A DNA stretch of 64,000 nucleotides, from contig CACKNC010000005.1 in the NCBI GenBank assembly GCA_902601455.1, forward strand, positions 19,908 to 83,907. Reading direction: 5' to 3'. The notes below the pieces were generated by a model, which had not been told where the DNA came from, searched no databases, and saw nothing but the letters and a program-made list of their open reading frames with translations. A program made the translations under genes and the position numbers. Shown piece by piece: positions 26,230 through 45,478 of the stretch (position 1 is the first letter of the stretch; the number at the start of each line of letters is the position of its first letter). The DNA comes from an uncultured Alphaproteobacteria bacterium. GTDB taxonomy: Bacteria; Pseudomonadota; Alphaproteobacteria; HIMB59; GCA-002718135.

Positions 26230-26247
26230 GCTGAATAAGCATTCAAT
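26230..26247. promoter_or_regulatory. Palindromic putative TetR/BetI-type operator, site A
   Basis: GCTGAATAAGCATTCAAT; reverse complement matches site C (45461-45478) at 16 of 18 bases; 22 nt upstream of the aminotransferase start. Confidence 0.65.
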
Positions 26248-26264
26248 GAAAATTAATTATTTTA

Positions 26265-27041
26265 TTACTTATCTTGCCATTTAGGGTCAGTTTTTTTTAT
26301 AAAAGAAGATGCGCCTTCTTTTAAATCCTGACTTCCATAGACTTTTTTAACAGTTTCTAAAGATCTTAATATTCTAAAAGAAGTAATTTCTTTTTCATTT
26401 TCTGTCTCACGTAAAACTTCCTTTATTGATGAATAGATTAAGTTAGGACCATTTGAAATTTTTTCAGCTACTTCCCATGCCCTTTTTAGTAAATCCTTTT
26501 TATTGACTACTTCATTTACTAAGCCCCAATGTTTAGCTTCTTTAGTGTTCATCCACCTTCCAGTCATTAAAAACTCAACAGCTACATGATAAGGAATTCT
26601 CCTTCTTAATTTTATTGTAGCTGCATCTGCAACTACCCCTACATTAATTTCTGGTAAAGCAAATGTTGCATGTTCGGATGCTATAATAATATCTGCTGAA
26701 ATCATTATTTCAAAACCACCACCACAAGCGATACCATTTATGGCAGCAATAATAGGTTTGTTCATATTTGGTAATTCTTGCAAACCACCAAATCCTCCAA
26801 CGCCATAATCAGCATCTGCTGCTTCTCCTTCGTTAACAGCTTTTAGATCCCATCCTGCTGAAAAAAATTTTTCTCCACCACCAGTAATAATAGCTACTTT
26901 AAGATTAGGGTTATCTCTAAAATCAGAGAATATATTGCCTAAAATTATGCTTGTTTTAGCATCAATAGCATTAGCTTTTGGTCTATCAATTGTAACTTCA
27001 AGAATCGAGTTTACAATTTTAGTTTTGATTGGCTCACTCAT
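26265..27041 (-). CDS. Enoyl-CoA hydratase family, carnitinyl-CoA dehydratase (CaiD)-like
   Basis: ILEVTIDRPKANAIDAKTS, AIITGGGEKFFSAGWDLKAVNEGEAADADYGVGGFGGL, INGIACGGGFEIMISADIIIA: strong recalled similarity to CaiD. Confidence 0.8.
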   Translation of the reverse strand: MSEPIKTKIVNSILEVTIDRPKANAIDAKTSIILGNIFSDFRDNPNLKVAIITGGGEKFFSAGWDLKAVNEGEAADADYGVGGFGGLQELPNMNKPIIAAINGIACGGGFEIMISADIIIASEHATFALPEINVGVVADAATIKLRRRIPYHVAVEFLMTGRWMNTKEAKHWGLVNEVVNKKDLLKRAWEVAEKISNGPNLIYSSIKEVLRETENEKEITSFRILRSLETVKKVYGSQDLKEGASSFIKKTDPKWQDK

Positions 27042-29092
27042 AATTCTTCAAAATAGTGTATTAGTGCATCTACTGCAAACACACCTTTATTTTTTTTACA
27101 AACTATTAGTGGATTAATTTCTATTTCATGCAATTTATTAATATTTTTTTCAGCAAATTTAGATAATGAAAGGATTGTTTTAATTAAACTATCTATATCT
27201 GCTCTATCTTGATTTCTGTATCCAAATAATATCTTACCTATTTTCATATTTTTTAGTTCATTCTGAATATCTTTTTTAGTTAATGGCAATAATAATGTTT
27301 TGGTTTCTCTAATAAGCTCTGTGTAAATTCCTCCAGCACCAATGACTATTACAGGACCAAATTCGTCATCAATTTTAATTCCGATTAAAATTTCTACTAG
27401 TGAATCTTTGACCATTTTCTCTAATAAAATTTGATTTTTAAATGTTTTTGTTTTGGAAATTAATTCATTAAAATTTTTAATATTAGTTTTAACACCATTA
27501 TGCTCAGATTTATGAAAAATCATGTTTGAGTGAATTTTAGCAACTAATGGATATCCAATTTTAGCACTATCTTTTTTTAATTTAATTTTATCTGAAATTA
27601 TTCCCTTAGGAATTCTAATTCCAATTTTTTTTAGAATTTTTTTTGATTCAAATTCAGAGTAAGTTTTAATATTTTTATTTTGCCTCTTTACTTTATAGTT
27701 TTTTACCGCAGACTCGTTCTTCCAAATACTTCCGATTTCTATAGCTTTTTTAATTGTGAATAGAGCTTCTTTCATTCCTTGAAGAGGTGAAATGCCATTA
27801 TTAATACATTTATCTCTAATGTGTTTTGGCATTGTGTCTGATAATGATGAAATGAGGCTTCCATTTTTATATTTTTTTGCAACTTTTATAAATTTGTTAA
27901 CTATTGCATCCCACTCATCAGTATCACATTTTTCCATATTTGGAAAATCAAGCATTAAGCTTATTGAGCTAAAATTATTTTTAAAAAAAATTTTGAATGT
28001 TTTTTCAATATCATCAGGATCATTCCAATTGTATGTTTGCATATCGAAAGGATTAGAAACTATTACGCCGGGATGATTTACTTTTTTAAGATCATTTTTA
28101 ATTTGTGGCTTAATTTTTCCAAATTTTAAATTTAAAGTTTCAGCAGCATCTCCTAGCATTGCCATATCTCCACCCGATGGACCCATAATTGATATTTGAT
28201 CATTTGAGATAACCCCATGAGTATGAAAATATTTAAGTAATTCTGTAAGTTCAGACAAAGTTTCACATCTGGCAACTCCCATTCTTTTAAATAATGCATC
28301 ATAAATGTTTTCTTTGCCACTTAATGAACCTGTGTGAGTTAAAATTGTCTTGGATGCAACTTTAGATCTGCCAACTTTTACTATTGCAATTGGGATTTTT
28401 TTTTCTTTAGAAATTTTTAAAACTCTAATTAGTTTATTAATACTAGTGAAACCCTCAGCATATATACCTATTGCAGTAACTCTTTTATCTTTAAGAGCAT
28501 ATTCAATTGTATCTTCAATGCCTATTTTAGCCTGATTGCCCAATGATATGATGTATCCTATTGGAAGAGATCTGTGATTAAAGCTAATGGTGTTTCCAAT
28601 TGTGCCACTTTGACAAATAATAGCTACACCTTTTTTTGTTTGATTCCCCGCAACTTGATCTGACCATACTGAAACTCTATCGAAGTAATTAATAAATCCA
28701 TAACAATTAGGACCTAAAAAAGGAGTTTTTCCAGAATTATCAATTAATTTTTTTGTTTTTTCTTTGCCTTCTGAAGTATTTAATTCTGAAAATCTTGAAG
28801 CTAAGCATACCGCTCCTCCAGCACCAATATCAGAAACATCTTTCATTAATTTAATTGTTAAATCATTTGAAACTGCAATATAAACACAATCAGGAATTGA
28901 TGGTAAGTCAGCTAAACTTTTATAATATTTCTTTTTTTTTGTAGTACTTCTTTTAGGGTTTATGTGCCAAATTTTTCCTTTAAAGCCAATCTTTATATTT
29001 TCATCATAAACAAAATCAGCCCAGTAACCACCAATTATTGCAAGTTTTGTTGGTCTAAATAATTTATTTAAGTTCACAAAATTAAGCCCCAA
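27038..29092 (-). CDS. NDP-forming acyl-CoA synthetase (fused alpha-beta)
   Basis: N-terminal CoA-binding domain (FRPTKLAIIGGYW...), ICQSGTIGNTI, HTGSLSGKENIYDALFKRMGV, C-terminal ATP-grasp (GPVIVIGAGGIYTELI... EINPLIV). Confidence 0.85.
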   Translation of the reverse strand: MGLNFVNLNKLFRPTKLAIIGGYWADFVYDENIKIGFKGKIWHINPKRSTTKKKKYYKSLADLPSIPDCVYIAVSNDLTIKLMKDVSDIGAGGAVCLASRFSELNTSEGKEKTKKLIDNSGKTPFLGPNCYGFINYFDRVSVWSDQVAGNQTKKGVAIICQSGTIGNTISFNHRSLPIGYIISLGNQAKIGIEDTIEYALKDKRVTAIGIYAEGFTSINKLIRVLKISKEKKIPIAIVKVGRSKVASKTILTHTGSLSGKENIYDALFKRMGVARCETLSELTELLKYFHTHGVISNDQISIMGPSGGDMAMLGDAAETLNLKFGKIKPQIKNDLKKVNHPGVIVSNPFDMQTYNWNDPDDIEKTFKIFFKNNFSSISLMLDFPNMEKCDTDEWDAIVNKFIKVAKKYKNGSLISSLSDTMPKHIRDKCINNGISPLQGMKEALFTIKKAIEIGSIWKNESAVKNYKVKRQNKNIKTYSEFESKKILKKIGIRIPKGIISDKIKLKKDSAKIGYPLVAKIHSNMIFHKSEHNGVKTNIKNFNELISKTKTFKNQILLEKMVKDSLVEILIGIKIDDEFGPVIVIGAGGIYTELIRETKTLLLPLTKKDIQNELKNMKIGKILFGYRNQDRADIDSLIKTILSLSKFAEKNINKLHEIEINPLIVCKKNKGVFAVDALIHYFEEL

Positions 29093-30233
29093 GAGGTCTT
29101 AATAAAGATCTTGAGATGATATGCCTTTGGATCTCACTTGTTCCCTCCCAGATTCTTTCTATTCGGGCATCACGCCAGATTCTTTCTAATGGTATATCAG
29201 CCATTAAACCCATTCCGCCACATATCTGGATTGCTTCATCTGATACTTTACCAAGCATTTCAGTGCAAAATAATTTTGTCATTGCAGCATCTTGGGATGA
29301 AAGAGTTTTTTGATCAATCTTCCATGCTGATTCAAGTAACATTAGGTTTGCAGCTTTAATATTTGTAGCCATATCTGCTAATTTAAATGAAACACCTTGA
29401 AATTTTCCTATTACTTTTCCAAATTGTTTTCTATTAGCTGACCAGTCAAGTGCAATATCAAATGCTCTTTCTGCTCTTGATACAGAAGTTGCTGCTACTG
29501 TTAATCTAGTTGCTTCTAACCAAACATTCATCAATTCAAAACCTTTGTCTTTTTCACCTAAAATATTTTTCCCAGGTATTCTGCAGTCATTAAAATTGAT
29601 AACATTATTTACATATCCTCTATGAGAAACACAGTCGTAACCCTTAGCTACTTCAACACCTTTTTGATGAAGGTCCACCAAGAAGCATGATAATAAATTT
29701 CTTCCATGCTCATCTGTTCCAGTTGAGGCGAATAAAACTACAAAGTCTGAAATATGAGCATTTGAAATAAAATGTTTGGTTCCATTGATTATCCAATCAT
29801 CACCATCTTTTTTTGCATTTGTTTTCATTCCTCTAAGATCGGAACCAGCCTCAGGCTCAGTCATCGCAATACAATCTTTTCTTTCGCCGGTAATGGCAGG
29901 TTTTAAGTATTGATCAATTAATTCCCCTTCACAGGCCATTAAGATATTTTGTGGACGCCATGCAATTTCAGCTAACGCAAGGGATGCAAAACCTAAATGT
30001 TTTTCAACTAAAGTTAAATCAAAAGCATTTAAACCACTTCCGCCGTATTCAACTGGCATATTGCATGCATATAAACCGGCATCAATGCTTTTTTTCTTAA
30101 TTTCATCATATAATTCTCTAGGAAGATTATTTGTTTTTTCTAAAAGCTCTTCATGTTGTAGTAGTTCTGTTTTAACAAAAGCTTTAGTTGTATTTATTAA
30201 AAGATTTTGTTCTTCTGTAAGATTAAATTCCAT
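29082..30233 (-). CDS. Acyl-CoA dehydrogenase
   Basis: CIAMTEPEAGSDLRGMKT, QICGGMGLMADIPLERIWRDARIERIWEGTSEIQR. Confidence 0.9.
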   Translation of the reverse strand: MEFNLTEEQNLLINTTKAFVKTELLQHEELLEKTNNLPRELYDEIKKKSIDAGLYACNMPVEYGGSGLNAFDLTLVEKHLGFASLALAEIAWRPQNILMACEGELIDQYLKPAITGERKDCIAMTEPEAGSDLRGMKTNAKKDGDDWIINGTKHFISNAHISDFVVLFASTGTDEHGRNLLSCFLVDLHQKGVEVAKGYDCVSHRGYVNNVINFNDCRIPGKNILGEKDKGFELMNVWLEATRLTVAATSVSRAERAFDIALDWSANRKQFGKVIGKFQGVSFKLADMATNIKAANLMLLESAWKIDQKTLSSQDAAMTKLFCTEMLGKVSDEAIQICGGMGLMADIPLERIWRDARIERIWEGTSEIQRHIISRSLLRPLGA

Positions 30234-30234
30234 T

Positions 30235-31422
30235 TTATATATCAGCAGGTACCTTATGCCGTCTTGGCGGATTAAAAAACTGTTTTTTCACAACTAAACA
30301 TTCAGCCCATATTTTTTTATACTCCAATTCTTCAGGATGATATATTTCAGCAAAAACTTTTGATCCAATTTTCATATGGTCTTTATCAACATAACCAAAA
30401 GCAATATTTGATTTTAAGCTTGGTGACCACATACCAGCTGTCACAATACCAATTTCTTTTTTATTTTTATCATACAAAACTGAACCAATAGCAGGTTTGT
30501 CACCTTGAATATCTAGCCCAACTAATTTTTTAGTTAAAGATTTGTTTTTCAAATTAATAAGAGATTTTTTTCCTGTAAAATAGTTTTTATTTAAATCAAC
30601 TAGCCATCCCATACCTAGTTCAAACGGAGTCCTCATTCTATTTGGTCGTAATGCTTGTTCTGCAGACATAAAATCTGCATTTGGCTGAATAAAACCTGCC
30701 TCAATTCTAACCATTTCTAGCGCGTTCATACCTGCAGGTAAAACCTTATAGTCTCTATTAAATTTGAATAGTGAGTCCCAAACATTTAACGCATCTTGAG
30801 GGTTACACCAGATTTCGTAGCCCAAATCTCCAGAAAATCCAGTTCTAGATATAGTAACATTTGAGCCATTAAGGTCAAAACTATCAAAGAAAAATGGCTT
30901 TAGGTGTTCTATGTTCTTAACATTTAATAAATGTAAAATTTTACAAGAGAGAGGTCCTTGAAATGCTAAAGCAGCAATAGAGTCACTGACATCGTTCACT
31001 TCTGCATCAAAACCAATAGCTGTATCGCAAAACCAATTCAAATTTCTTTCTGCACAAAATATTCGCAAATGATTTGTATTAAAACAAAAAACAGTACCAT
31101 CATCGATAACATTTCCATCTTCATTGCACCAAATAATATACATCACTTGATTAGGTTTAATTTGTGTTACATCTCGTGTGACTAATTTATCTACAAATTT
31201 TATAGCGTCTTTTCCTTTGATATCATATTTATGCATTGGTGTTATATCTAAAACCCCCGCTGTATTTCGCATTGAGGTGTACTCTAGTTCTGTATTAGAA
31301 TACTCTCTTGCAATTTTATATCCAGCCCAACGATACCAATCATTATTATAACAAGCTTCAAAAGTTCTTTTATGAAAAGGTGTTTCCAGAAGAGGTTTTG
31401 TAAATGAAAGTGTATTATCCAT
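30235..31422 (-). CDS. GcvT/DmdA-superfamily aminomethyltransferase (THF-dependent demethylase-like)
   Basis: LDITPMHKYDIKGKDAIKFVDKLVTRDV, ALAFQGPLS, SRTGFSGDLGYEIWC, C-terminal GcvT barrel. Confidence 0.82.
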   Translation of the reverse strand: MDNTLSFTKPLLETPFHKRTFEACYNNDWYRWAGYKIAREYSNTELEYTSMRNTAGVLDITPMHKYDIKGKDAIKFVDKLVTRDVTQIKPNQVMYIIWCNEDGNVIDDGTVFCFNTNHLRIFCAERNLNWFCDTAIGFDAEVNDVSDSIAALAFQGPLSCKILHLLNVKNIEHLKPFFFDSFDLNGSNVTISRTGFSGDLGYEIWCNPQDALNVWDSLFKFNRDYKVLPAGMNALEMVRIEAGFIQPNADFMSAEQALRPNRMRTPFELGMGWLVDLNKNYFTGKKSLINLKNKSLTKKLVGLDIQGDKPAIGSVLYDKNKKEIGIVTAGMWSPSLKSNIAFGYVDKDHMKIGSKVFAEIYHPEELEYKKIWAECLVVKKQFFNPPRRHKVPADI

Positions 31423-32893
31423 TACCTTTATCCTTTAATAATTGTTTTGCAGCATTAACTCCATTAATACCAGTAATACCGCCTCCAGGATGGGTACCTG
31501 CACTACATAGATATAAGCCATTAATTGGGGTAGAATATTGAGAAGAGCCATAAAATGGACGCATCATTAAAAGTTGATCAATCTCCAAATCTCCATGACT
31601 CCAGTGACCACCATTAATATTATATTTACTTTCAATATCATTTGGAGTTTCAATTAATGAAGATAGAATTTGATTTTCTTCAATAAATTTATCTAAAATT
31701 AATTTAATATTTTTTAATATTTGCTCTTTATCATGTGAAGATTTTTTTAAATAAGGTATGAAGTAGACATTAGCAGATATTTTATTTTTATTTATATAAA
31801 ATTCCAAACAAGGATTTGATGTTAATTTATTATATTTATTGGCATTAAAAGCATGTTCTATATATTTTATATTTGGAGCATAAACAAATTTACCTGATAA
31901 ATATTTTGATTCTAAATTTTTAATTTTGATATCATTTTTAAATTCAATATTGACTTTAGCTACTGTACCTCTGGAGCGATAATTATTTGTTCTTCTTATA
32001 AAGTCTGTATCTAAATTAGAAGCTCCAACTAATTCCAAATAAGTAGTTTTAGGGTCTGAATTTGAGATTATCGCAGACGTTTCAATTTGCTCTCCCGTAT
32101 TAAGCAAAACTGAATTAACACTTTGGTTTGAAATATTAATTTTTTCTACTTTTTTATTTGTTTGAATCTCAACATTATTTTTTTTACAAATATCCTCAAT
32201 AGATTTTAAGAATGAGTTTGTATTAAATTTATTAATTCTAAAGAATGAGTTGTTAGTAGCTTGATTGTACAATAGATTTAATATTGATCCAGGGGATCTT
32301 GCACCAAGATTTGTTCCAATTACAGCCTCATTAGATATTAATCCCTTTAAACAATCACTTTCAATATTGTCCTCTAAGTCATCCGCAATATTTAAACCAA
32401 TTACGCGTAATAATTCTCGCATGTTTTTTTTACCAAGAAGTCTGACTTTAAAACCCATTGTAAATAATTGCCAAATATCAGATCTGGAACCTGATTTGAC
32501 TCTTGGTGGTTTTTTAAACATAAATGATCTTAAGGTTCTTGCAAATAAATCATATTTATTAATTAAGTTAATAAAACTTTTTTGATCAGAGTCACTTGCA
32601 CTTGTTTGTAAAAATTGAACATTTTTACTTCCATTTATTTGGAGCACAGTATGATTTAAATCTTCCGACAAAGCGGACACAAAATTATCACTTGTATTTT
32701 TTTCAACAGTAATATTTAATTCTTTTAAAACTTCTTGGGAGATATTGCTTAAGTATTCAGAATAATTAGCAAGGCCACCTAATTTTTCATTCTTTTCTAT
32801 TACTAAAACTTTATTTCCATTTTTTGATAAAACACAGGCAGCAACTAAACCATTATGCCCTCCACCAATAATTATGACATCAAATTTTTTCAT
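31415..32893 (-). CDS. Phytoene desaturase/PYROXD2-like FAD oxidoreductase (paralog 1, divergent)
   Basis: DVIIIGGGHNGLVAACVLSKNGNKVLVIEKN; C-terminal NGLYLCSAGTHPGGGITGINGVNAAKQLL. Confidence 0.82.
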   Translation of the reverse strand: MKKFDVIIIGGGHNGLVAACVLSKNGNKVLVIEKNEKLGGLANYSEYLSNISQEVLKELNITVEKNTSDNFVSALSEDLNHTVLQINGSKNVQFLQTSASDSDQKSFINLINKYDLFARTLRSFMFKKPPRVKSGSRSDIWQLFTMGFKVRLLGKKNMRELLRVIGLNIADDLEDNIESDCLKGLISNEAVIGTNLGARSPGSILNLLYNQATNNSFFRINKFNTNSFLKSIEDICKKNNVEIQTNKKVEKINISNQSVNSVLLNTGEQIETSAIISNSDPKTTYLELVGASNLDTDFIRRTNNYRSRGTVAKVNIEFKNDIKIKNLESKYLSGKFVYAPNIKYIEHAFNANKYNKLTSNPCLEFYINKNKISANVYFIPYLKKSSHDKEQILKNIKLILDKFIEENQILSSLIETPNDIESKYNINGGHWSHGDLEIDQLLMMRPFYGSSQYSTPINGLYLCSAGTHPGGGITGINGVNAAKQLLKDKGNG

Positions 32894-34530
32894 ATATAAT
32901 GTGTGTTAATCTGTTTCTTTAAATCTATTAAAATTTCTCTTGCTGCATTTGCTCCAGGTGCGCCCATAACTCCCCCACCTGGATGAGTGCTAGATCCACA
33001 CATGTATAGATTTTTAATTGGAGTTTTGTACTGAGCATAACCTGGTATAGGTCTGTTAAACATTAACTGATCCATGGTAAGTTCTCCTTGGAAGATATTG
33101 CCTTCAGTTAATCCAACTTCTTCTTCTAGCTCTTTTGGTGTTCTTATTTCAGCATGTTTTATTATGTCATTAAAATTTTCAGAATATGCTCCAATTCTAT
33201 TCATAACATGCTTCCCAAACTCTAATCTTTTTTCTTCAGTCCATCCACCATCTGCAAGATTGTATGGAACGTACTGAACAAATACTGACATATAATGTTT
33301 TCCTTGTGGAGCCATTGTGGGATCATTAATACTTGGAATACACATATCTACATAAGGTAATTTAGACCATCTGCCATCTTTCCAATCATCGTAAGCACTT
33401 TCCATTTCTTCTATACTCTGTGTAATGTGAAGATCTCCTGTTCCCGCAGGATCTCCCTCCGGTATGCTTTTCCAAATAGGTAAATCATCAAGAGCTATAT
33501 TCAATTTTCCTGAAGATCCTCTTATTTTAAAATTTTTAACTGCATTATAAAAATCATCAGGTATATTTTCTTTTTCTACAACCTTAAGAAAAGTTCTTTT
33601 TACATCTAGATTGGAAACTAGTTTATCAGCAAATATTTCATCACCATTTTCTAGAACAACACCATGGCTACGATTATTTTTAATTAATATTTTAGTTACT
33701 GGTGATCCTGCAATAATATCGCCACCACTTGCTTTTAGAGAAGCGGCCATAGCTCTCGTTATTGAGCCCATTCCTCCCCGTGAATACCCCCATGCACCAA
33801 CTGTTCCATCTACTTCCCCCATATAATGGTGTAGTAATACATAGGCTGAACCAGGAGAATAGGGCCCTAAAGCAGTACCAATTATTGCTGATCCTGCCAT
33901 ATGAGCCTTTACAACTTCTGACTCAAAATATTCTTCCAAATAATCACGTACACTCATCGTCCAAAAACGAATAGTGTCATAAATTTCTTTTTCACCCAGT
34001 CCGCCTAATTCATCTTTTGCGGCAAAAAATTTTGCAAAATCTAAAAGACCCATAATATCTTTTGGTCTAAATGAGGTTGGATCTGGAGGGGTCATCTTTA
34101 ACAATGGTTTTATTATTTTACATTGCCTCATTACATCTTTACTAAACCTCTCGTAAGCTTCAGCATCTTTTTTAGAAAATTTTGCAATAGAGCGATAATT
34201 AAGATCATGATCGCTGTAATGTGCATAAAATCGTCCATCATCAAGCATTGTAGCACTACCTTCATATGGAATGATCTGGAGGCCATACTTAGAAAGTTCT
34301 AAATCTCTAAAAATCTCAGGTCTTAGTAGGCTACATACATATGAGCAATTGGAATAGGTCCATCCTGGGTGAAGTTCTCTACTTACGGCTGCTCCACCAA
34401 CATAACTATGACGTTCAATTACTGCTACTTTTAAACCAGCTTTAGCTAAATAGCAGGCAGTTGTTAGTCCATTATGACCACCGCCTATAATAGCTACATC
34501 ATATTTAGTTTTTGACATTTTTGATTTCAT
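32890..34530 (-). CDS. Phytoene desaturase/PYROXD2-like FAD oxidoreductase (paralog 2; start reassigned from 34632)
   Basis: KYDVAIIGGGHNGLTTACYLAKAGLKVAVIERHSYVGGAA; C-terminal NLYMCGSSTHPGGGVMGAPGANAAREIL. Extra N-terminus of the 34632 ORF would overlap the TetR gene and site B; likely starts at 34530 or 34518. Confidence 0.82.
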   Translation of the reverse strand: MKSKMSKTKYDVAIIGGGHNGLTTACYLAKAGLKVAVIERHSYVGGAAVSRELHPGWTYSNCSYVCSLLRPEIFRDLELSKYGLQIIPYEGSATMLDDGRFYAHYSDHDLNYRSIAKFSKKDAEAYERFSKDVMRQCKIIKPLLKMTPPDPTSFRPKDIMGLLDFAKFFAAKDELGGLGEKEIYDTIRFWTMSVRDYLEEYFESEVVKAHMAGSAIIGTALGPYSPGSAYVLLHHYMGEVDGTVGAWGYSRGGMGSITRAMAASLKASGGDIIAGSPVTKILIKNNRSHGVVLENGDEIFADKLVSNLDVKRTFLKVVEKENIPDDFYNAVKNFKIRGSSGKLNIALDDLPIWKSIPEGDPAGTGDLHITQSIEEMESAYDDWKDGRWSKLPYVDMCIPSINDPTMAPQGKHYMSVFVQYVPYNLADGGWTEEKRLEFGKHVMNRIGAYSENFNDIIKHAEIRTPKELEEEVGLTEGNIFQGELTMDQLMFNRPIPGYAQYKTPIKNLYMCGSSTHPGGGVMGAPGANAAREILIDLKKQINTHYI

Positions 34531-34537
34531 ATATTTC

Positions 34538-34555
34538 TTTGAATGAGCATTCAAC
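34538..34555. promoter_or_regulatory. Palindromic putative TetR/BetI-type operator, site B
   Basis: TTTGAATGAGCATTCAAC; TTGAATG-AG-CATTCAA is a perfect 7-bp inverted repeat, in the divergent gap before the TetR gene. Confidence 0.7.
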
Positions 34556-36417: not shown

Positions 36418-37302
36418 ATGATTTCTGCACTTCAAAAAATTTATGTTAAAAATGATCAGCTAAAAGCTTATACTTTATTATCTCCAGCATTAATTTTAAT
36501 TATTATTGCAATGGCAGCCCCCATGCTTGTAATGATTATCACAAGTTTTAATACACAAATATCAATGGTGGAAATTGATAGAACTTTTACTTTTGATAGA
36601 TATGAAGATTTTTTTTCAAAGCCAATATTTTCAATGCTTTTATTTAGGTCGCTTAAAATATCTTTCTTAGTAACTGTTTTAACTCTTCTGACTACATACC
36701 CACTTGCTTACTATATTGCTTTTTACGTGAAAAAAAATAAGATGCTTTGGATCATTTTGATGACTTTACCATTTTGGACTAGTTATCTATTAAGAGTTTT
36801 TTCTTGGAAAGTTATTTTAGGAAACAAGGGAGTGATTAATTCTGCGCTTGTTGGATCAGGTTTAATTGATGAGCCTCTTGGCTTTTTACTCTATAATCAA
36901 GGTGCTGTAGTTTTGACTCTCGCTCATGCATGGGCAGCATTTGCTATTTTACCTCTTTATGTATCCTTAGATAAGATAGATAAATCTTTGCTTGAAGCTT
37001 CTTATGATTTGGGTAACTCAAAATTTGAAACTTTTATACGTGTTACATTACCTTTATCTTTACCAGGAATAATTGGAGCCATTCTTATTATTTTTATACC
37101 TACTGTTGGAGATTATGTAACTCCTCAAATGGTTGGTGGAACTGATGGTAGAATGCTCTCAAATATGATTCAAAGTTTATTTGGTAGAGCTAATAATTTT
37201 CCATTAGGTGCAGCATCAGCAGTTTTAATGCTGTCATCTGTTTGTATTATTGCTGGTATAGTTACTTATATTACTAAAAAATTAACTTTGAGAATGTCCT
37301 AA
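36418..37302 (+). CDS. ABC transporter permease (PotB-like)
   Basis: EASYDLGNSKFETFIRVTLPLSLPGIIGA EAA loop; polyamine-type arrangement. Confidence 0.88.
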   Translation: MISALQKIYVKNDQLKAYTLLSPALILIIIAMAAPMLVMIITSFNTQISMVEIDRTFTFDRYEDFFSKPIFSMLLFRSLKISFLVTVLTLLTTYPLAYYIAFYVKKNKMLWIILMTLPFWTSYLLRVFSWKVILGNKGVINSALVGSGLIDEPLGFLLYNQGAVVLTLAHAWAAFAILPLYVSLDKIDKSLLEASYDLGNSKFETFIRVTLPLSLPGIIGAILIIFIPTVGDYVTPQMVGGTDGRMLSNMIQSLFGRANNFPLGAASAVLMLSSVCIIAGIVTYITKKLTLRMS

Positions 37303-38105
37303 TGTACAAAAAAAATAATTCATTATTAGTTTACTGTATTTTTTATTTTTTATTTTTATACATTCCAGTGTTTTTATTGCCAATTTTTTCTTTTAATGAC
37401 TCCTTTCACATGGTTTTCCCTCTCAAAGGTTTTACTTTTGATTGGTATATAGAGATGTGGAATAAAGCTAGACTGCATAAAGCTCTATGGAATAGTATTA
37501 AAGTTGGTGTGATAACTGCTATTATTAGTACATTCATTGCTCTGTTCGCAGCAAAGGCTTTTACAAGATATAGAGTTAAATATAGTGGTTTATCTTATGG
37601 AGCATTACTTCTACCTTTTATAATTCCAGAAATTATAATTGCCGTAGCTTTCATAGTAATTTGGACAAGTATGGGATTAAAACTAGGATTAATACCTATT
37701 ACTATCTCTCATATATTATATTGCACCCCTTTTTGTTTATTAATATTAATTTCTAGAATGGATGGGTTTGATAAAAGTTTAGAGGAAGCCTCTATGGATT
37801 TAGGAGAGAATATATTTGGTACTTTTTGGAGAGTCACTTTCCCATTATTACTTCCAGGAATTATTGCATCATTATTACTATCTTTTGTCATTTCTTTTGA
37901 TGAATTTATTTTAGCTTTCTTTTTAAGTTCTAGTGATCAAACTCTTCCTATTTATATGTGGAGTCAATTGAGATTTCCAAAAAAACTTCCACATGTATTA
38001 GCATTGGGTGCTATAATTATTGTGGCAACTTCTTTTATTGTAATGTTATCATATTGGTTTAGAAATCTTGGACAATCAAATAATAATAGAGGATCTCATA
38101 TATAA
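37302..38105 (+). CDS. ABC transporter permease (PotC-like)
   Basis: EASMDLGENIFGTFWRVTFPLLLPGIIASLLLSFVISFDEFILAFFLS. Confidence 0.88.
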   Translation: MYKKNNSLLVYCIFYFLFLYIPVFLLPIFSFNDSFHMVFPLKGFTFDWYIEMWNKARLHKALWNSIKVGVITAIISTFIALFAAKAFTRYRVKYSGLSYGALLLPFIIPEIIIAVAFIVIWTSMGLKLGLIPITISHILYCTPFCLLILISRMDGFDKSLEEASMDLGENIFGTFWRVTFPLLLPGIIASLLLSFVISFDEFILAFFLSSSDQTLPIYMWSQLRFPKKLPHVLALGAIIIVATSFIVMLSYWFRNLGQSNNNRGSHI

Positions 38106-39187
38106 TGGTTAATAATGATTTTATAAAATTAAGAAATATTTCAAAGAAATTTGATGATGTAATAGCTGTAGACTCTCTTGATTTAGATATAAGTGAGGGT
38201 GAATTTTTCTCTCTTCTGGGCCCATCTGGTTGCGGAAAAACAACTTTATTAAGAATTTTAGCTGGTTTTGAATACCCAACTACAGGTAGTGTTTTTATTG
38301 ATAATAGTGATGTTACCAATCAAACACCAAATTTAAGACCTTCAAATATGGTTTTTCAAAATTACGCTATATTCCCTCATATAAATGTTCAAAGAAATAT
38401 AGAATTTGGATTACGCAAAGAAAAACTTAGCAGAGAGGAATTAAATTTAAGAGTTAAAGAGTCTTTAAAAATGGTTCAGTTGGAAGGCTATGAGGAAAGA
38501 TTCTCCAATCAATTGTCTGGAGGCCAAAGGCAGCGTGTAGCTCTTGCAAGAGCTTTAGTTAAAAGACCAAAAGTATTATTACTAGATGAACCATTAGGAG
38601 CTCTTGATAAAAAACTAAGAGAAGAAATGCAAATTGAATTAAGAAACCTTCAAAAAGAACTTGGAATTACATTTATATTTGTAACCCATGATCAAGAGGA
38701 AGCTATGACTATGTCTGACCGTGTTGCAGTTATGAATGAAGGCAAAATATTACAAATATCACCTCCTAAAGAATTATATAATAAGCCAGTAAATAAATTT
38801 GTTAGTGAATTTATTGGAAATATAAATTTATTGGAAACATCTATAATTGATGAAAATGATAAAAACTTAACTCTTGATATTTTAAATATTGGTAAACAAG
38901 ATTTTAACAAAAATATTTTTAATTCCAAATTATCAGAAAATATATTTGTTGCATTAAGACCTGAGGATATTTCAATTAAAAAAGAAAAAATAGAAACTGC
39001 AGATATAAATATAAAAGGAATTGTAAAAAATGTATCATTTTATGGTGAGAGTACTTATTTTTATGTAAAGGTAGAAGGAATTAATAAATTATTAATGGTG
39101 TCAAATTTTGTTGATCAGGTATCAATTAATGAAAATGATGAATGTAGTTTAGGTATTAATTTAGAGAATATAAAATTAGTTTCTTGA
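38105..39187 (+). CDS. ABC transporter ATPase (PotA-like)
   Basis: GPSGCGKTTLLRILAGFE, LSGGQRQRVALARAL, VLLLDEPLGALD; C-terminal TOBE region. Confidence 0.92.
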   Translation: MVNNDFIKLRNISKKFDDVIAVDSLDLDISEGEFFSLLGPSGCGKTTLLRILAGFEYPTTGSVFIDNSDVTNQTPNLRPSNMVFQNYAIFPHINVQRNIEFGLRKEKLSREELNLRVKESLKMVQLEGYEERFSNQLSGGQRQRVALARALVKRPKVLLLDEPLGALDKKLREEMQIELRNLQKELGITFIFVTHDQEEAMTMSDRVAVMNEGKILQISPPKELYNKPVNKFVSEFIGNINLLETSIIDENDKNLTLDILNIGKQDFNKNIFNSKLSENIFVALRPEDISIKKEKIETADINIKGIVKNVSFYGESTYFYVKVEGINKLLMVSNFVDQVSINENDECSLGINLENIKLVS

Positions 39188-39231: not shown

Positions 39232-40344
39232 TTAACCACCCATAGAGTAATTTGCCCATTGCATTTCAATATAATCGTTTATTTCATCGCTTGGACTATT
39301 ATTGAAGTTACCATTTGCAAGGTGACTAATTGGATCTTGAGCAACTCCTCTTTCAGCAAGTGCTTCTGTAGATATAGTTTCAAATCCTCTTTTATTTGAA
39401 TGACCATATCCCCATTCGCTAAGCATATAAGCGGATGACTCAAAACTTATAGCTGAGTCTATCAAGTCATAAGCTAAATCAAGATTTGGAGCATCCTTAT
39501 GGAGAACTAAACCACAAGACCAAGTTAGAGTTCCTTCTTTTGGACTCATCATTGGAAATCCTGTATTCCAAGATGACTCATTCCAAGCTAAAGCAGCCCA
39601 AACTTCTTCATCAAGAAGAGCTTGTTCCATACTGGCAGTGTCAGTAGTAAATAATTTAACATTATCTCTCCATCCAGCGGCTGCAGAATAGACCGCATCG
39701 ACATCAGCTTTGGTAATATTTTCCATTTTTTTAACATCGTAACCTAATGCTATTGCATAACAATACCATGAGTCAGCAGCTGAGTCTAAAATAGCAAATT
39801 TACCTTTCATGCGCTCATCCCATAATAGTTCCCAACTAGCATTATTAGGATCAATCCAATCAATTTTTTCTGGATTATATATTATTGAAGTATCACCCCA
39901 GTCAACAGGTGCCATCCAATAATTACCATCAAAGTTTATTGTAGACATGTTAATTAATTCAGGAAATAAATCATTCCAGTTACTTAAGCGACTAGTATCC
40001 AGAGGTTGTATAACGCCTGCTTTATTCCACCTTGGTGGATCAGAGTGACATGGATGAGCTAGATCTACAACATAACCTGAACGTAGTTTTTGTAAACCTT
40101 CTTCGGCGTCACCAAAAATTGAGTACTCAGGGTCACCACCATGTTTTTCAATATAACTAGCATATAAGCCCGGGTCGTCGTAACCACCCCAAGTAAATAG
40201 TTGAGCTTGTTGTTTGGCAAATGCAGTTTTTGGTAACATTGGTATTGTAGTAGATAGAACACCAGCAGCCCCAAGACCTTTAAGCATTTGCCTTCTTGTT
40301 AACTCACCATTTACAATTCGTTTTGATAAATCGTATTTAGGCAT
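39232..40344 (-). CDS. ABC transporter substrate-binding protein (PotD-like) with Tat-type signal peptide
   Basis: LTRRQMLKGLGAAGVLSTTIPMLPKTAFA twin-Arg leader, then polyamine-type SBP sequence (LFTWGGYDDPGLYASYIEKHGG). Confidence 0.85.
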   Translation of the reverse strand: MPKYDLSKRIVNGELTRRQMLKGLGAAGVLSTTIPMLPKTAFAKQQAQLFTWGGYDDPGLYASYIEKHGGDPEYSIFGDAEEGLQKLRSGYVVDLAHPCHSDPPRWNKAGVIQPLDTSRLSNWNDLFPELINMSTINFDGNYWMAPVDWGDTSIIYNPEKIDWIDPNNASWELLWDERMKGKFAILDSAADSWYCYAIALGYDVKKMENITKADVDAVYSAAAGWRDNVKLFTTDTASMEQALLDEEVWAALAWNESSWNTGFPMMSPKEGTLTWSCGLVLHKDAPNLDLAYDLIDSAISFESSAYMLSEWGYGHSNKRGFETISTEALAERGVAQDPISHLANGNFNNSPSDEINDYIEMQWANYSMGG

Positions 40345-40469: not shown

Positions 40470-41852
40470 ATGAAATCTAAGTACAAAAAAGTAGAACTTG
40501 CCACCATTAAAGAATTTAACGATTTTAAAAAAAAACATAAAAAAATTAAATACCTTGATGTAATTTTGGGTGATTTATCAGGTATCATTAGAGGTAAAAG
40601 AATTCCTATTTCTGATGCAGATAAAATTTTTATAACTGGTGTACAGTTTTGTTATTCAACCTTTTTACTCGATACATCAGGGTACTGTCCAGATGCAGAG
40701 GGAAGGGGATTCACTGACGGTGATCCTGATGCAAATTATTATCCGGTTAAAAATACACTATCTATTATACCTTGGCATAAAGATAATATAGCTCAAGTAC
40801 TAATTACAATTCAAGATGAGTCACGTTATTCTTCTATTATGGATCCAAGAAATGTTTTAGCTAAAGTGTGGGATAATTTTTCAAAATTAAAATTACATCC
40901 AAGAGTAGCTTTTGAGCTGGAGTTTTATTTAATAAAGAGGAGAAAGAAGCTTGATGAAAATCCAACACCCCCAGTATCTAAAAGAAACAACAGGCAAGCA
41001 GAAGGAACACAAGTTTATGGAATGAGTGAGCTCGATGATTTTTATAATTTTTTAGAAGAAATTAATAATTTTTGTAAAATTCAAAATATACCAGCTTCAA
41101 CTGCATCTTCTGAATTTGCTCCTGGGCAATTTGAAATTAATTTAAACAGTACCACAAATTTATTAAAAGCAGCAGATGACTCAGTTTTATTGAGAAGGCT
41201 TGTAAAGGAAACAGCAATTAAGCATGGTTATGAAGCTACATTTCTATCAAAACCATACCTAAGTGAAGCAGGAAGTGGCATGCATTTACATTTAAGTTTA
41301 TATGATAAAAATAAAAAAAATGTTTTTTCTAAAAATAAATTAAAAAATAAAAATTTACTCCACGCAATTGGAGGTCTCCAAAAAACAATGTATGAATGTA
41401 TGGCTATTTTTGCACCAAACATTAATTCATATAGAAGATTTTTACCTGATCAATTTGTTCCAGTTAATTCTAGCTGGGGGCCAAATAATAGATCTGTGGC
41501 TTTTAGAATTCCAGTTAGTAATGAAGAAGCGACAAGAATAGAACATAGAGTTGCTGGAGCAGAAGCTAACGCTTATTTAGTACTATCTTCAATCTTAACT
41601 GGAATTATGTATGGTTTAAAAAATAAAATCATTCCTGATAAACCACGTATAGATAACGCTTGTGATAATCCAGATAAAGAGATGCCTTTAAATATTGATG
41701 ACGCACTTACAAAATTAAAAAGCTCAAAAGTGATGAACAAATACCTCACCAAAGAGTATGTTAAAATTTATGTTGATCTAAAAAGAAAAGAACAAGTATC
41801 TTTTCATTCAGAAATTTCAAATACAGAACTTAAGTGGTATCTTAATCTTTAG
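40470..41852 (+). CDS. Glutamine synthetase family, gamma-glutamylpolyamine synthetase (PuuA)-like, copy 1
   Basis: LGDLSGIIRGKRIP, AFELEFYLI, EAGSGMHLHLSL, NSYRRFLPDQFVP, EHRVAGAEANAYLVL. Confidence 0.85.
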   Translation: MKSKYKKVELATIKEFNDFKKKHKKIKYLDVILGDLSGIIRGKRIPISDADKIFITGVQFCYSTFLLDTSGYCPDAEGRGFTDGDPDANYYPVKNTLSIIPWHKDNIAQVLITIQDESRYSSIMDPRNVLAKVWDNFSKLKLHPRVAFELEFYLIKRRKKLDENPTPPVSKRNNRQAEGTQVYGMSELDDFYNFLEEINNFCKIQNIPASTASSEFAPGQFEINLNSTTNLLKAADDSVLLRRLVKETAIKHGYEATFLSKPYLSEAGSGMHLHLSLYDKNKKNVFSKNKLKNKNLLHAIGGLQKTMYECMAIFAPNINSYRRFLPDQFVPVNSSWGPNNRSVAFRIPVSNEEATRIEHRVAGAEANAYLVLSSILTGIMYGLKNKIIPDKPRIDNACDNPDKEMPLNIDDALTKLKSSKVMNKYLTKEYVKIYVDLKRKEQVSFHSEISNTELKWYLNL

Positions 41853-42711
41853 TCTCTCCATTAAGACTGAGTATTTCTTCATATAATTCAGGCCTTCTGT
41901 CTCTAAATAGTCCCCAATTTCTTCTGAAGAGATGATTTTCTTCAGTGTCTATTTCTGCAATTATTACTTCTTCTATATCTTTTGAAGCTTCAGCAATTAT
42001 TTTACCAGATCTATTACAAATAAATGATTTTCCATAAAAACCATTAACTTGCCCCTTAACAGATTCTGAACCAATTCTATTTGACGCAACAACTGGCATT
42101 ATGTTTGCAGCAGCATGACCTTGCATTACTGTTTGCCAAGCATCAGAGCTATCATATGTACTCATTATCTCATCACCAATAGCCGTGGGGTAAAACAAAA
42201 CTTCAGCACCTTTTAAGGCCATTATACGAGCAGCTTCAGGAAACCATTGATCCCAACAAATTCCAATACCAATCTTTCCAAACTTTGTATTCCAAACTTT
42301 AAAACCAGTATCACCAGGATTAAAATAATATTTTTCAAGATATCCTGCACCATCTGGAATATGGGATTTTCGATATTTGCCAAGTATTTTACCATCAGAG
42401 TCAATTACAGCTATTGAATTGAAATATGCATTATTATCTTTTTCAAAAAAACTTATTGGTAAGACAACTTTATTTTTTTTTGCAACTTCACTCATTTCTT
42501 TTATTAAAGTATTATTTTCAAAAGGTTGAGCCAACTTAAAAATTTCCTCGTCATATTGAATACAAAAATATGGAGTTTGAAATAATTCTTGAAGCAAAAC
42601 TATATTTGCACCCTGTTGAGCGGCTTTTTCAATTAAATGAATAGATTTTTTTATATTATTGTCAATTTCCCAATCACAACTCATTTGAGTTGCAGCTACT
42701 TTAATCTTCAT
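41842..42711 (-). CDS. aguB: Carbon-nitrogen hydrolase, N-carbamoylputrescine amidase
   Basis: Catalytic Glu (LLQELFQTPYF), Lys (YRKSHIPDG), Cys (GIGICWDQWFPEAARIMALKGAEV); adjacent to agmatine deiminase. Confidence 0.88.
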   Translation of the reverse strand: MKIKVAATQMSCDWEIDNNIKKSIHLIEKAAQQGANIVLLQELFQTPYFCIQYDEEIFKLAQPFENNTLIKEMSEVAKKNKVVLPISFFEKDNNAYFNSIAVIDSDGKILGKYRKSHIPDGAGYLEKYYFNPGDTGFKVWNTKFGKIGIGICWDQWFPEAARIMALKGAEVLFYPTAIGDEIMSTYDSSDAWQTVMQGHAAANIMPVVASNRIGSESVKGQVNGFYGKSFICNRSGKIIAEASKDIEEVIIAEIDTEENHLFRRNWGLFRDRRPELYEEILSLNGETKD

Positions 42712-42925
42712 TTTTTATCCTCTTTTTTTCTTCAAGGTAGTTATGTAAGCTTATTATTTTTTTACTTGCATTTGTTTGGAATACAGATGGTATGATTGAG
42801 TGAATAAATGCCATAACAGAGGCTTTAAATAAATCAAAAGATATTTTTTGAGCTACAGACATGTGTTGAAAGTAGCTTTCATTAGCATCGGTACAATGTT
42901 TTTTTGATTTTTTAAGAAAATTCAT
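42701..42925 (-). CDS. DUF6356-like small protein (start reassigned from 42961)
   Basis: HCTDANESYFQHMSVAQKISFDLFKASVMAFIHSIIPSVFQTNASKKI matches my recollection of DUF6356; in-frame ATG at 42925 lies just after the aguA stop. Confidence 0.55.
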   Translation of the reverse strand: MNFLKKSKKHCTDANESYFQHMSVAQKISFDLFKASVMAFIHSIIPSVFQTNASKKIISLHNYLEEKKRIKNED

Positions 42926-42927
42926 TA

Positions 42928-43971
42928 TTAAAGGCTTAATGGTTGTTGTTGGGTTATGCAATGAATATTTCCTCCACCAAGTGAAATATCAATTCCATTA
43001 ATAGCTATTACTTTTCTATTAGGAAATACTGATTGAATTATTTTTTGCGCATTTTTATCAGCTTTTTCATCTTCGAAACTAGGCATTATGATCCCATCAT
43101 TTGCTATGTAGAAATTAATATACGAACTTGGCTCATCATCATTTGGTATAAGTCTTTTATAAGACATTTCAATTTCAATAACTTCTAACGAACGACCTTT
43201 AGCATCAACTGAAGTTTTTAATATTTCTAAATTTTCATTTAATTTTTCATAAAAAGGGTCCTGTTTATCACTGCAAGATAAAGCTAGAACCTTTCTCTCA
43301 TTTGCAAAACAAGCAATATTGTCAATATGCCCATCAGTTCCTTCATCTGTGCCATGTTTAAGCCAAATAATCTTTTCAATATTTAAATATTTTTTTATGT
43401 TTTCTTCTATTTCTCCTTTTGTAAGTTTCGGGTTTCTGTTTTTATTTAAGAGACATTGTTCAGTTGTAATTAATGTACCTGCTCCATCGACATGTATTGA
43501 TCCTCCTTCGAGAACCATTTGTGATTTAAAATATGTTGCAGAACTTTTATCTATCATAAACTTAGCAATTTTATTATCAGAGTCATGTGGTGTGAATTTC
43601 CCCCACCCATTAAACTCCCAATCAACTCCTCCTAATTTTTTTTTATCATTTAAAAGGAATGTAGCTCCAGAATCTCTTGCCCAACAATCATCATTTTGAA
43701 ATTCATAAATATTTATTGATTTATCAAGTAATTTATTGGCAATTTCTATATCTTGAGGATTAACAATCATATTTACTTTTTCAAAATTTGATATTGCTTT
43801 AGCGACTTCTGCCCATTTATATCTACCTTTTTCAAAATTAAAATGAGACCAACTTTCAATTTCTTTATATGAATTCTTATTATCAAACTCATGAGGCCAT
43901 TGCATCCAACAACATTTATGAGGATACCACTCAGGAGGCATAAAAAAATTTTGTTGCTTTGGATCTGTCAT
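42928..43971 (-). CDS. aguA: Agmatine deiminase
   Basis: MPPEWYPHKCCWMQWPH, NDDCWARDSGATFLL, EGGSIHVDGAGTLITTEQCLLNKNRN, GTDGHIDNIACF, LGGGNIHCITQQ. Confidence 0.93.
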   Translation of the reverse strand: MTDPKQQNFFMPPEWYPHKCCWMQWPHEFDNKNSYKEIESWSHFNFEKGRYKWAEVAKAISNFEKVNMIVNPQDIEIANKLLDKSINIYEFQNDDCWARDSGATFLLNDKKKLGGVDWEFNGWGKFTPHDSDNKIAKFMIDKSSATYFKSQMVLEGGSIHVDGAGTLITTEQCLLNKNRNPKLTKGEIEENIKKYLNIEKIIWLKHGTDEGTDGHIDNIACFANERKVLALSCSDKQDPFYEKLNENLEILKTSVDAKGRSLEVIEIEMSYKRLIPNDDEPSSYINFYIANDGIIMPSFEDEKADKNAQKIIQSVFPNRKVIAINGIDISLGGGNIHCITQQQPLSL

Positions 43972-44106
43972 TTAATCATTAATTTTGCAGTTTGTGCATT
44001 TTCTAAATGTGAAGTCGCCTTTTTTACCTTTTTTTAAAGGTGAATCATTACAACCAACTAAAAAAATAAAAGAAAATAATATTACAAAGCTTAACATTTT
44101 TTTCAT
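43972..44106 (-). CDS. Small putative lipoprotein (44 aa), not in supplied ORF track
   Basis: Read manually: MKKMLSFVILFSFIFLVGCNDSPLKKGKKGDFTFRKCTNCKIND-stop; lipobox LVGC; start overlaps the upstream gene stop. Confidence 0.55.
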   Translation of the reverse strand: MKKMLSFVILFSFIFLVGCNDSPLKKGKKGDFTFRKCTNCKIND

Positions 44107-45443
44107 TAATACTTATCCTTAAATTTATAGTAAGCAAGTGCTACCCTTAAGTAAAATAATCTTAGTTTAGGAAATGGAAATTTACTTGGTAATCCTTTGT
44201 AAATTTTAGAAATATTTAAATCTTTACTATTAGATACAATTAATTTTGTAAGTTCGTTACCTGCCCAGGGTGCTGTGTTAACTCCATTTGCTTGATACCC
44301 AAAACTGTAATATATTTCATCATCATCAAGCTTTCCTATTGATGGAGAAAATTTGGTTGTAACAGCAACTAAACCTCTCCAATGAAAATCTATATTTACA
44401 TCACTCCAATTGGGAAACACATTTTTCATTTGTTTCTCCATTTGTTTTGATTTTTCTAATGAAGACTCTTCACTACCAATTAAATCTCCTCTTGCTCCAA
44501 ATAAAAACCTCTTATCCTTTAATAATCTGTAATAAAATAATAGATTTCTAATATTTAAAACTGGATTATTAGTTATAAAATTATGAGATTGTATTTCATC
44601 ATCCGTTAATGGTCGTGTGATAATTATATTAGATATAACGGGTAAAATCATATTATTTAATTTAGGAAATATATCATCTTTATAAAAACCATTAGTGGCC
44701 ATTACTATTTTATTTGTATTTATAATTTGGTTATTTGAAATAATTTTATACTTACCATTTACTTTTTCTATTTTTGTAACTTTGCTTTTTTGAAAAATTT
44801 TTACTCCAGCTTGATTTGCAGTTTTTGCTAAACCTATTAAAAACTTAAGCGGATTTATTGCAAATCCAGGCTTATAAGACATAGCTCCAAACTGCTCATT
44901 ACCGCCGTGACCAATTTCATTAAATTCTTCTCTTGTAAAAACTTTTGTTTCTATGCCGAATTCTTTTTTGTATTTTTCAGCTTCTTCTTTAATATTCTCG
45001 AAATAACTTGGGTGTGGAGCTACTTCAAAATTACTATCACCAGTTAAATCACAATCAATATTATACTCTTTAATTATAGATTTTGTAAAATTAGAACCTT
45101 CTATAGTATTTTGAAAAAATTTTTTTGTTTCTGTTCTTCCATATTTTTTGAACATTTTTTTTACAGACATTTTTGCAGGTGGTATACAGCAAAAACCAGC
45201 ATTTCTTCCTGAGGAACCCCATCCTATATGACCAGCCTCAAGTAGAACGACATCTTCGTTATGTTTTTTTACTAATGATAAAGCGCAAGAAAGTCCTGTA
45301 TAACCTCCACCAATAACAACAATATTTGCATTAAAATTAGTATCTAGAGTTTTATAGTTATTATCAGTATCAATAGTTGACTCCCAGTAACTTTTTACTG
45401 GTTTTTCAAATTTATAGATATCCTCATGATAAAGATTGGTCAT
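44106..45443 (-). CDS. FAD-dependent oxidoreductase, PuuB-like, copy 1
   Basis: ANIVVIGGGYTGLSCALSLVKKH, GHIGWGSSGRNAGFCCIPP, YSFGYQANGVNTAPWAG. Confidence 0.85.
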   Translation of the reverse strand: MTNLYHEDIYKFEKPVKSYWESTIDTDNNYKTLDTNFNANIVVIGGGYTGLSCALSLVKKHNEDVVLLEAGHIGWGSSGRNAGFCCIPPAKMSVKKMFKKYGRTETKKFFQNTIEGSNFTKSIIKEYNIDCDLTGDSNFEVAPHPSYFENIKEEAEKYKKEFGIETKVFTREEFNEIGHGGNEQFGAMSYKPGFAINPLKFLIGLAKTANQAGVKIFQKSKVTKIEKVNGKYKIISNNQIINTNKIVMATNGFYKDDIFPKLNNMILPVISNIIITRPLTDDEIQSHNFITNNPVLNIRNLLFYYRLLKDKRFLFGARGDLIGSEESSLEKSKQMEKQMKNVFPNWSDVNIDFHWRGLVAVTTKFSPSIGKLDDDEIYYSFGYQANGVNTAPWAGNELTKLIVSNSKDLNISKIYKGLPSKFPFPKLRLFYLRVALAYYKFKDKY

Positions 45444-45460
45444 AAGATAGTATAAATTTC

Positions 45461-45478
45461 ATTGAATGCTTATTCAAT
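45461..45478. promoter_or_regulatory. Palindromic putative TetR/BetI-type operator, site C
   Basis: ATTGAAT-GCTT-ATTCAAT, perfect 7-bp inverted arms, centred in the 53-nt divergent gap between the PuuB-like and Rieske genes. Confidence 0.7.

Follow-up and report, generated by a model that had tools for sequence, protein, structure and literature searches.

A conserved palindrome as the predicted operator of the only TetR-family regulator in a streamlined marine alphaproteobacterial genome

Introduction

Does a palindrome that recurs in three distant intergenic gaps of an uncultured alphaproteobacterium mark the binding site of a single regulator, and if so of what kind? The initial annotation of the window (the whole stretch of 64,000 nucleotides that was analysed) had proposed a regulon under a BetI-type TetR protein. 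SAR11-type streamlined marine oligotrophs are described as poor in transcriptional regulators, with carbon oxidation that often proceeds without transcriptional control (PMC13198564, PMC8437039). A literature search for a TetR regulon of these genes in SAR11 gave nothing specific. The sites, their conservation, their exclusivity genome-wide, the number of TetR genes and the recurrence of the operator beside distant homologs were computed. The palindrome proved to be real, and the observation stronger than first described.

Results

Distribution and conservation of the palindrome

Read in a common orientation, the sites are TTGAATGCTTATTCAG (site A, 26231–26246, minus strand, 22 bp upstream of the ATG of an aminotransferase gene), TTGAATGCTCATTCAA (site B, 34539–34554, between the TetR gene on the plus strand and the FAD1 gene on the minus strand) and TTGAATGCTTATTCAA (site C, 45462–45477, between the DAO gene on the minus strand and the Rieske gene on the plus strand). 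The initial annotation had located all three correctly and had seen that they share TTGAAT-N4-ATTCAA, which is exact at sites B and C and has one mismatch, at an outer base, in site A. Their consensus is a 16 bp, 7-2-7 palindrome, TTGAATG-NN-YATTCAR, which is perfect at site B (TTGAATG-AG-CATTCAA). When the sites are oriented alike the central four bases read GCTT, GCTC and GCTT, so the N4 is also common to all three.

Two exact copies of TTGAAT-N4-ATTCAA, those at B and C, were found in the window against 0.03–0.08 expected, and three copies of TGAATN4ATTCA against 0.24–0.49. The whole genome (1.42 Mb) contains three exact copies of the former, the third within a gene, and TTGAATGNNYATTCAR occurs only at sites A, B and C. 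A comparison of genes with gaps genome-wide, suggested as a check on the annotation, found TTGAATG-NN-YATTCAR confined to the same three gaps, and looser matches fell within genes or ORFs. With up to two mismatches allowed, the motif was not enriched in the window (17 matches versus 25 expected), and the loose form therefore proves nothing. An Rfam search found no elements.

Conservation upstream of orthologs, a second suggested check, was clear. Site B is kept in 21 of 21 relatives with 100 % identical arms, site A is exact in 16 relatives and has one substitution in a 17th, and site C is kept in all eight relatives that hold a close Rieske ortholog. Identity across relatives was 97–100 % in the arms (1.00 at B, 0.97 at A), 0.73 (B) and 0.64 (A) at the central NN, and approximately 0.6 in the distal flanks. 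Among genomes the motif co-occurred with the TetR gene (9/9 versus 2/52, Fisher 3e-9), a figure that we do not accept as independent proof, given that one island carries both the sites and the TetR gene. A candidate fourth site, TTAAATAGACATTCAA, precedes a glutamine-synthetase-like gene in nine relatives as a weak motif. It is tentative only, as the left arm is lost in other relatives and the site is absent from the window.

Promoter geometry

Site C carries a pair of divergent promoters in which each TTGAAT arm coincides with a −35 box. The spacing is 17 bp to TATAAT on the plus strand and 17 bp to TATACT on the minus strand, and the start codons follow the −10 boxes after 5–7 bases on both sides (DAO start 5 nt, Rieske start 6 nt). 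The TTGAAT arm of site A (26246–26241) is −35-like and lies 17 bp from TAATGT, with a TG just before it, and on the FAD1 side of site B the arm is 15 bp from a −10. The sites had been described as standing just upstream of start codons. This holds: the distance is 18–22 bp at A, for FAD1 at B and for both genes at C, and 60 bp for the TetR gene, with the FAD1 start moved from the TTG at 34632 to the conserved ATG at 34518. The arrangement at C makes occlusion of the promoters of near-leaderless genes likely; near-leaderless transcripts would follow from these distances.

The same geometry could be read as nothing but divergent −35 elements, TTGAAT on each strand, which are kept to serve RNA polymerase and not a regulator. 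In favour of this, TTGAAT makes a fair −35 and good −10 boxes stand on either strand at C, and some of the arm conservation could indeed be promoter conservation. We nevertheless consider this reading very unlikely. Both arms are conserved at A, although a gene follows on one strand alone; on the TetR side of B no −10 stands at the usual distance from the arm; conservation extends past the hexamer; the pattern is missing from the rest of the genome; and the N6 spacing within TTGAA-N6-TTCAA recurs beside TetR homologs in distant high-GC bacteria (see below).

The TetR-family regulator beside site B

The gene on the plus strand beside site B (34615–35238) encodes a 207 aa protein with the recognition helix LSQGIVNFHFKSKE. 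It is the only PF00440 protein in the genome, though at 86 % completeness the assembly could lack a second TetR. The protein scores 34.8 bits to PF00440 (cut-off 24) and 37.3 bits to PF13977, the BetI-type C-terminal domain (cut-off 27). Its AlphaFold model (pLDDT 93.5) is all-helical and matches TetR structures. A TetR_N helix-turn-helix joined to an all-helical ligand domain, and a palindrome in the gene's own promoter gap in 21 of 21 orthologs, place it in the TetR family, and the initial annotation was right to put site B in that gap.

The further implication, that the regulator is a true choline-responsive BetI, was rejected, and we regard it as extremely improbable. BetI is the best-scoring NCBIfam model for the protein, the Pfam BetI-type C-terminal domain is present and TTGAA arms are common to both operators. 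However, the score of 94.9 bits is far below the TIGR03384 equivalog cut-off of 201.3, a level reached by no protein in the genome, and the protein splits from BetI-like sequences in the tree with 90/95 support. The recognition helix carries NFHFKSKE where BetI has HYF. The BetI box, of the TTGAA-N2-TTCAA or ATTGACGCGTCAAT type, is not found at the sites, which have N6 spacing.

The distinction extends beyond this lineage. TTGAA-N6-TTCAA was found upstream of 10 of 20 distant TetR homologs of the NF[HY]F type (0.17 expected), including a perfect TTGAATGGACATTCAA in a locus of 69 % GC; the other ten had no recognisable N6 site within 250 bp. TTGAA-N2-TTCAA was found at 9 of 15 BetI-like sequences versus 1 of 20 in the NF[HY]F clade. 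Genome-wide scans of the distant genomes recovered perfect N6 arms beside the TetR gene in a few (e.g. G222 and G359), but the background in AT-richer genomes was too high to define whole regulons. Gene order is also shared with distant bacteria: in locus L137, and also in L043 and L138, TetR, ACAD2, Pot, Rieske and OYE genes lie opposite FAD1-FAD2-GcvT.

Genes downstream of the sites

On the plus strand the TetR gene heads an operon with an acyl-CoA dehydrogenase gene (35238–36413) and genes for a PotB-PotC-PotA-like amine ABC transporter (36418–39187). A gene for a PotD-like substrate-binding protein (39232–40344, minus strand) adjoins the regulon and has no motif upstream. The opposite side of site B leads into FAD1, a CrtO/amine-oxidase-like flavoprotein gene (32890–34518), followed on the minus strand by FAD2, a second of the same kind (31415–32893), a GcvT-type aminomethyltransferase gene (30235–31422) whose product is close to GcvT, the C-terminal part of TMAO demethylase and DMGDH, and genes for an acyl-CoA dehydrogenase, an ADP-forming CoA ligase and a CaiD-like hydratase (26265–30233).

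Site A precedes a class III omega-aminotransferase gene (24826–26208, minus strand; PRK07036 above cut-off), behind which an MFS transporter gene and two small genes overlap or abut (22632–24829, minus strand). The aminotransferase is related to putrescine aminotransferases. At site C the plus strand carries the Rieske oxygenase gene (45497–46729) and a histamine/trimethylamine-dehydrogenase-like flavoprotein (OYE) gene (46756–48792). The nearest solved relative of the Rieske oxygenase is 3vca (275 bits), which we take to be Stc2, the stachydrine demethylase; its score to the GbcA model NF058607 is 340.9 bits, below the cut-off of 670. On the minus strand is a DAO-family (PuuB-like) amine oxidase gene (44106–45443), with agmatine deiminase-like and N-carbamoylputrescine amidase genes (41842–43971, minus strand) packed behind it with two small ORFs and probably in the same operon. 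The amidase scores 438 bits, above its cut-off.

The same predicted operator thus stands before several transcription units, is conserved at orthologs and is rare elsewhere, as expected of a co-regulated regulon. Together with the sole TetR gene at site B, this upholds the proposal of a single TetR regulon whose operons are marked by the one palindrome.

Discussion

The comparative evidence argues strongly that the palindrome is the docking site of the only TetR of this genome, and if so one protein probably switches the amine uptake and breakdown genes together. We think it very probable that the protein binds all three sites and keeps five transcription units repressed by occluding −35 elements until an amine releases it. 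A TetR dimer would occupy the 16 bp palindrome at each place, acting as a repressor, as we infer, rather than an activator. The repressed units would be its own operon with the acyl-CoA dehydrogenase and PotBCA, the FAD1-FAD2-GcvT-ACAD-CoA ligase-CaiD operon, the operon of the aminotransferase and MFS genes and, on either side of site C, Rieske-OYE and the DAO unit, which probably includes AguA/AguB. The DNA would then be freed of repressor by an amine, either a substrate or an intermediate.

The genes of the predicted regulon combine functions in the demethylation of methylated amines and in acyl-CoA steps with a PotABCD-type transporter and with enzymes for agmatine and polyamines. A methylated-amine regulon, with a methylated amine as inducer, is plausible from the Stc2-like Rieske oxygenase, the TMADH/histamine-dehydrogenase-like enzyme and the GcvT-type demethylase. 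The same sites probably also govern PotBCA and the DAO-family oxidase and, again probably, the agmatine and N-carbamoylputrescine enzymes. This view of the ligand draws on the neighbouring enzymes and on structures of approximately 16 % identity. The nearest ligand-bound TetR structures include complexes with choline and trimethylamine, and those from Saccharomonospora viridis with small amines (4KWA/4NEL/4JNN; choline, trimethylamine and benzamidine) are among the nearest folds and profile matches. Of the conserved aromatics W112, F115, Y125 and W172, only W112 clearly aligns with the choline-bound structure, and a choline-type cage was not adopted.

A competing view of the ligand, which leaves the operator untouched, is that the regulon is chiefly for polyamines (putrescine or agmatine), the demethylases acting on N-methylated polyamines or another substrate. 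PotBCA, the PotD-like protein, DAO, the agmatine deiminase-like protein, the amidase and the relationship of the aminotransferase point this way, as does the weak motif before the glutamine-synthetase-like gene in nine relatives. The closest relatives of the Rieske, TMADH-like and GcvT proteins instead indicate N-methyl groups, and in the distant clusters with this TetR demethylase and Pot genes were found, but nothing that matched the agmatine genes. We regard a chiefly polyamine regulon as rather unlikely.

The predicted local regulon is new and of an already known kind. BetI (choline-responsive; R. pomeroyi BetI1/BetI2, PMC12442346) is likewise a TetR protein of amine catabolism with a BetI-type C-terminal domain, and its autoregulatory palindrome has TTGA/TCAA ends and overlaps the −35 box (BetI1 box ATTGACG*CGTCAAT), the differences being those of score, clade, helix and spacing set out above. 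AcuR of Rhodobacter sphaeroides (PMC3017554) is also a TetR repressor whose inverted repeat overlaps a promoter, in that case one of a leaderless operon that serves to break down a marine osmolyte, but the repeat is TAATAGAC-N6-GTCTATTA, the ligand is acrylate and a single operon is controlled. PA3973 of Pseudomonas aeruginosa (PMC9736018) also heads an operon with an acyl-CoA dehydrogenase, whereas its palindrome, TGAATCCGGATTCA, has no central spacer and other inner bases, with hundreds of ChIP sites and unrelated neighbours. Stc2-type stachydrine and GbcA-type glycine betaine demethylation resemble the Rieske gene and its adjoining TMADH-like flavoprotein, and differ in the GbcA score, the type of regulator and the extra CoA and polyamine genes found here.

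More widely, though we hold this a little short of an even chance, a previously undefined TetR subfamily with the NF[HY]F helix and the code TTGAA-N6-TTCAA may switch an undescribed route across Alphaproteobacteria, in which a methylated cationic amine would enter through a PotABCD-type transporter, be demethylated by Rieske, TMADH-like, FAD and GcvT enzymes and then undergo acyl-CoA-type breakdown; the streamlined marine lineage would have kept this regulator as its only TetR. The operator code is set apart from that of BetI, which annotation pipelines would otherwise blur. As the regulon groups genes of one amine pathway, the identity of the inducer would go far toward that of the substrate. 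With three conserved predicted operators over approximately 20 genes for catabolism and transport, a sole TetR stands as a clear exception to the SAR11-type picture.

Sequence and distribution of the palindrome

Once oriented alike, sites A (26231–26246, TTGAATGCTTATTCAG), B (34539–34554, TTGAATGCTCATTCAA) and C (45462–45477, TTGAATGCTTATTCAA) have in common the 7-2-7 palindrome TTGAATG-NN-YATTCAR. The TTGAAT-N4-ATTCAA reported in the initial annotation is present, but the shared sequence is in fact longer. Two exact copies of TTGAATN4ATTCAA were found in the window (0.03–0.08 expected), and TGAATN4ATTCA was found three times, precisely at A, B and C (0.24–0.49 expected); under loose matching (two mismatches) the motif was not enriched in the window. 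The genome containing the window (1.42 Mb, 39 contigs, 86% complete) includes three exact copies of TTGAATN4ATTCAA, the third within a gene. Genome-wide, TTGAATGNNYATTCAR was found only in the gaps at A, B and C, and the remaining near matches examined were all within ORFs. Exactly one TetR_N protein is encoded in this genome, and its gene (34615–35238, + strand) adjoins site B.

Conservation in relatives

TetR orthologs (65–96% identical) were compared at 21 loci in records titled Pelagibacterales, Pelagibacteraceae or uncultured Alphaproteobacteria, the order being taken from titles only. Site B was found at all 21 loci. Site A was exact in 16, with one substitution in a 17th, and its region was missing or rearranged in the other four. 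Site C was found in all eight relatives carrying a close Rieske ortholog. Mean pairwise identity was 1.00 (B) and 0.97 (A) in the arms but fell to 0.73 (B) and 0.64 (A) at the central pair of bases and to about 0.6 in the distal flanks. Conserved arms around a variable centre, with variable distal flanks, are what a protein-binding palindrome characteristically shows. The whole of site C is conserved (0.99), and the bases adjoining B and C on one side are also well conserved (0.88–0.93), as expected of a promoter. Given the restriction of TTGAATGNNYATTCAR to the three sites, the conservation of the sites in relatives and the position of the only TetR_N gene, the single-palindrome TetR regulon proposed initially is very probably real.

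TetR was found in nine of 61 genomes searched, all nine holding two or more sites, and the sites were absent from 50 of the 52 genomes without it, though this co-occurrence is confounded because the sites occupy the same gene island as TetR. The cluster is mosaic: at four loci from other genomes (L030, L035, L038, L040), neighbouring genes alternate between 91–97% and 48–77% identity to the window, which suggests recombination within the island. A weaker copy, TTAAATAGACATTCAA, is found in nine relatives, though not in the window, upstream of a glutamine-synthetase-like gene (L031:17324, L032:17327, L035:16092, L036:17330, L038:16090 and four more).

Genes and promoters at the sites

The genes flanking the three sites are the predicted targets of the regulator. 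Site A is followed by genes for an omega-aminotransferase, an MFS protein and two small proteins; the gene at 22632–23201 had no Pfam match, leaving its earlier designation as an HD oxygenase unconfirmed. FAD1-FAD2-GcvT-ACAD-CoA ligase-CaiD lie on one side of site B and TetR-ACAD-PotB-PotC-PotA on the other. The start of FAD1 was moved to the ATG at 34518 on the basis of its conservation, as the TTG (34632) chosen by the ORF caller overlaps the TetR gene. On one side of site C are genes for a Rieske protein (nearest 3vca, which is Stc2, 275 bits) and a histamine/trimethylamine-dehydrogenase-like flavoprotein. On the other side, the genes for DAO, an agmatine deiminase-like protein (AguA) and N-carbamoylputrescine amidase (AguB) form one tightly packed run, the DAO-AguA gap being filled by an ORF for a lipoprotein-like peptide of ~43 aa (43971–44105) and the AguA-AguB gap by one for an unnamed short protein (42712–42927).

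The 53-bp gap at 45443–45497 contains a pair of divergent promoters, each with one arm of a single palindrome as its -35 box. At site C, TTGAAT is followed after 17 bp by TATAAT on the + strand and by TATACT on the - strand, with start codons 6 and 5 nt past the -10, respectively. This distance is 5–7 nt in all relatives, and in some the better + strand -10 is displaced by 2 bp. As each start codon is so close to its -10, two leaderless mRNAs are probably made from this gap, and we infer near-leaderless transcripts. A leaderless catabolic operon controlled by a TetR family protein, AcuR, is known (PMC3017554). At site A, 17 bp separate TTGAAT from TAATGT/TACTAT, which has TG in front, and on the FAD1 side of site B the spacing between TTGAAT and TATATG/TATAAG is 15 bp; no clear -10 at normal spacing was seen on the TetR side of B. 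From these spacings the operator overlies the -35 element, so that a bound TetR dimer would block polymerase, and at C a single palindrome would shut both divergent promoters together.

Relationship to BetI

TetR homologs as distant as 29–38% identity have one recognition helix in common, NF[HY]F. When the 250 bp upstream of the TetR in 20 NF[HY]F loci outside this lineage were searched (match of at least 9/10 bases), 10 of the loci had TTGAA-N6-TTCAA, where shuffled sequence would give 0.17, and other spacings were found in 0–2. The N2 spacing was found in nine of 15 BetI-like loci (0.09 expected) but in only one of the 20 NF[HY]F loci, and this is the diagnostic difference because N6 also scores in eight BetI-like loci, mostly via the longer TTGATTGAACGTTCAATCAA. 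An exception is L100 (genome G076), where an NF-type TetR lies below a perfect 20-bp BetI-like palindrome, TTGATTGAACGTTCAATCAA, an operator of the other class; FAD1-FAD1-GcvT genes are nearby. A tree separated the NF[HY]F-type TetRs from the BetI-like group (90/95), and no BetI equivalog was found in this genome (86% complete). Judged by these sequence comparisons, the TetR, initially described as having a BetI-type HTH, is not a BetI. A published BetI1 box, ATTGACG*CGTCAAT, likewise overlies the -35 (PMC12442346).

Distant bacteria have similar sets of genes around their TetR homologs. One such locus, L137, includes TetR-ACAD2-Pot genes-Rieske-OYE and, opposite these, FAD1-FAD2-GcvT and an aminotransferase. 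The tandem pair of CrtO/amine-oxidase-like flavoproteins with a GcvT-type protein after it (31415–34518 here) is a combination that recurs across distant bacteria (L043, L132, L137 and L138), possibly as a split demethylase system.

Ligand and significance

Among the closest ligand-bound structures by fold and by profile is a Saccharomonospora TetR (16% identity) in complex with choline, trimethylamine or benzamidine. Together with the demethylases, this match favours a methylated or quaternary amine, but polyamines may equally be considered, given the Pot transporter and the agmatine genes. The regulon adds a new case to the local TetR regulons already known, and one of this sort would be unusual in the streamlined genome of a marine bacterium (PMC13198564, PMC8437039).
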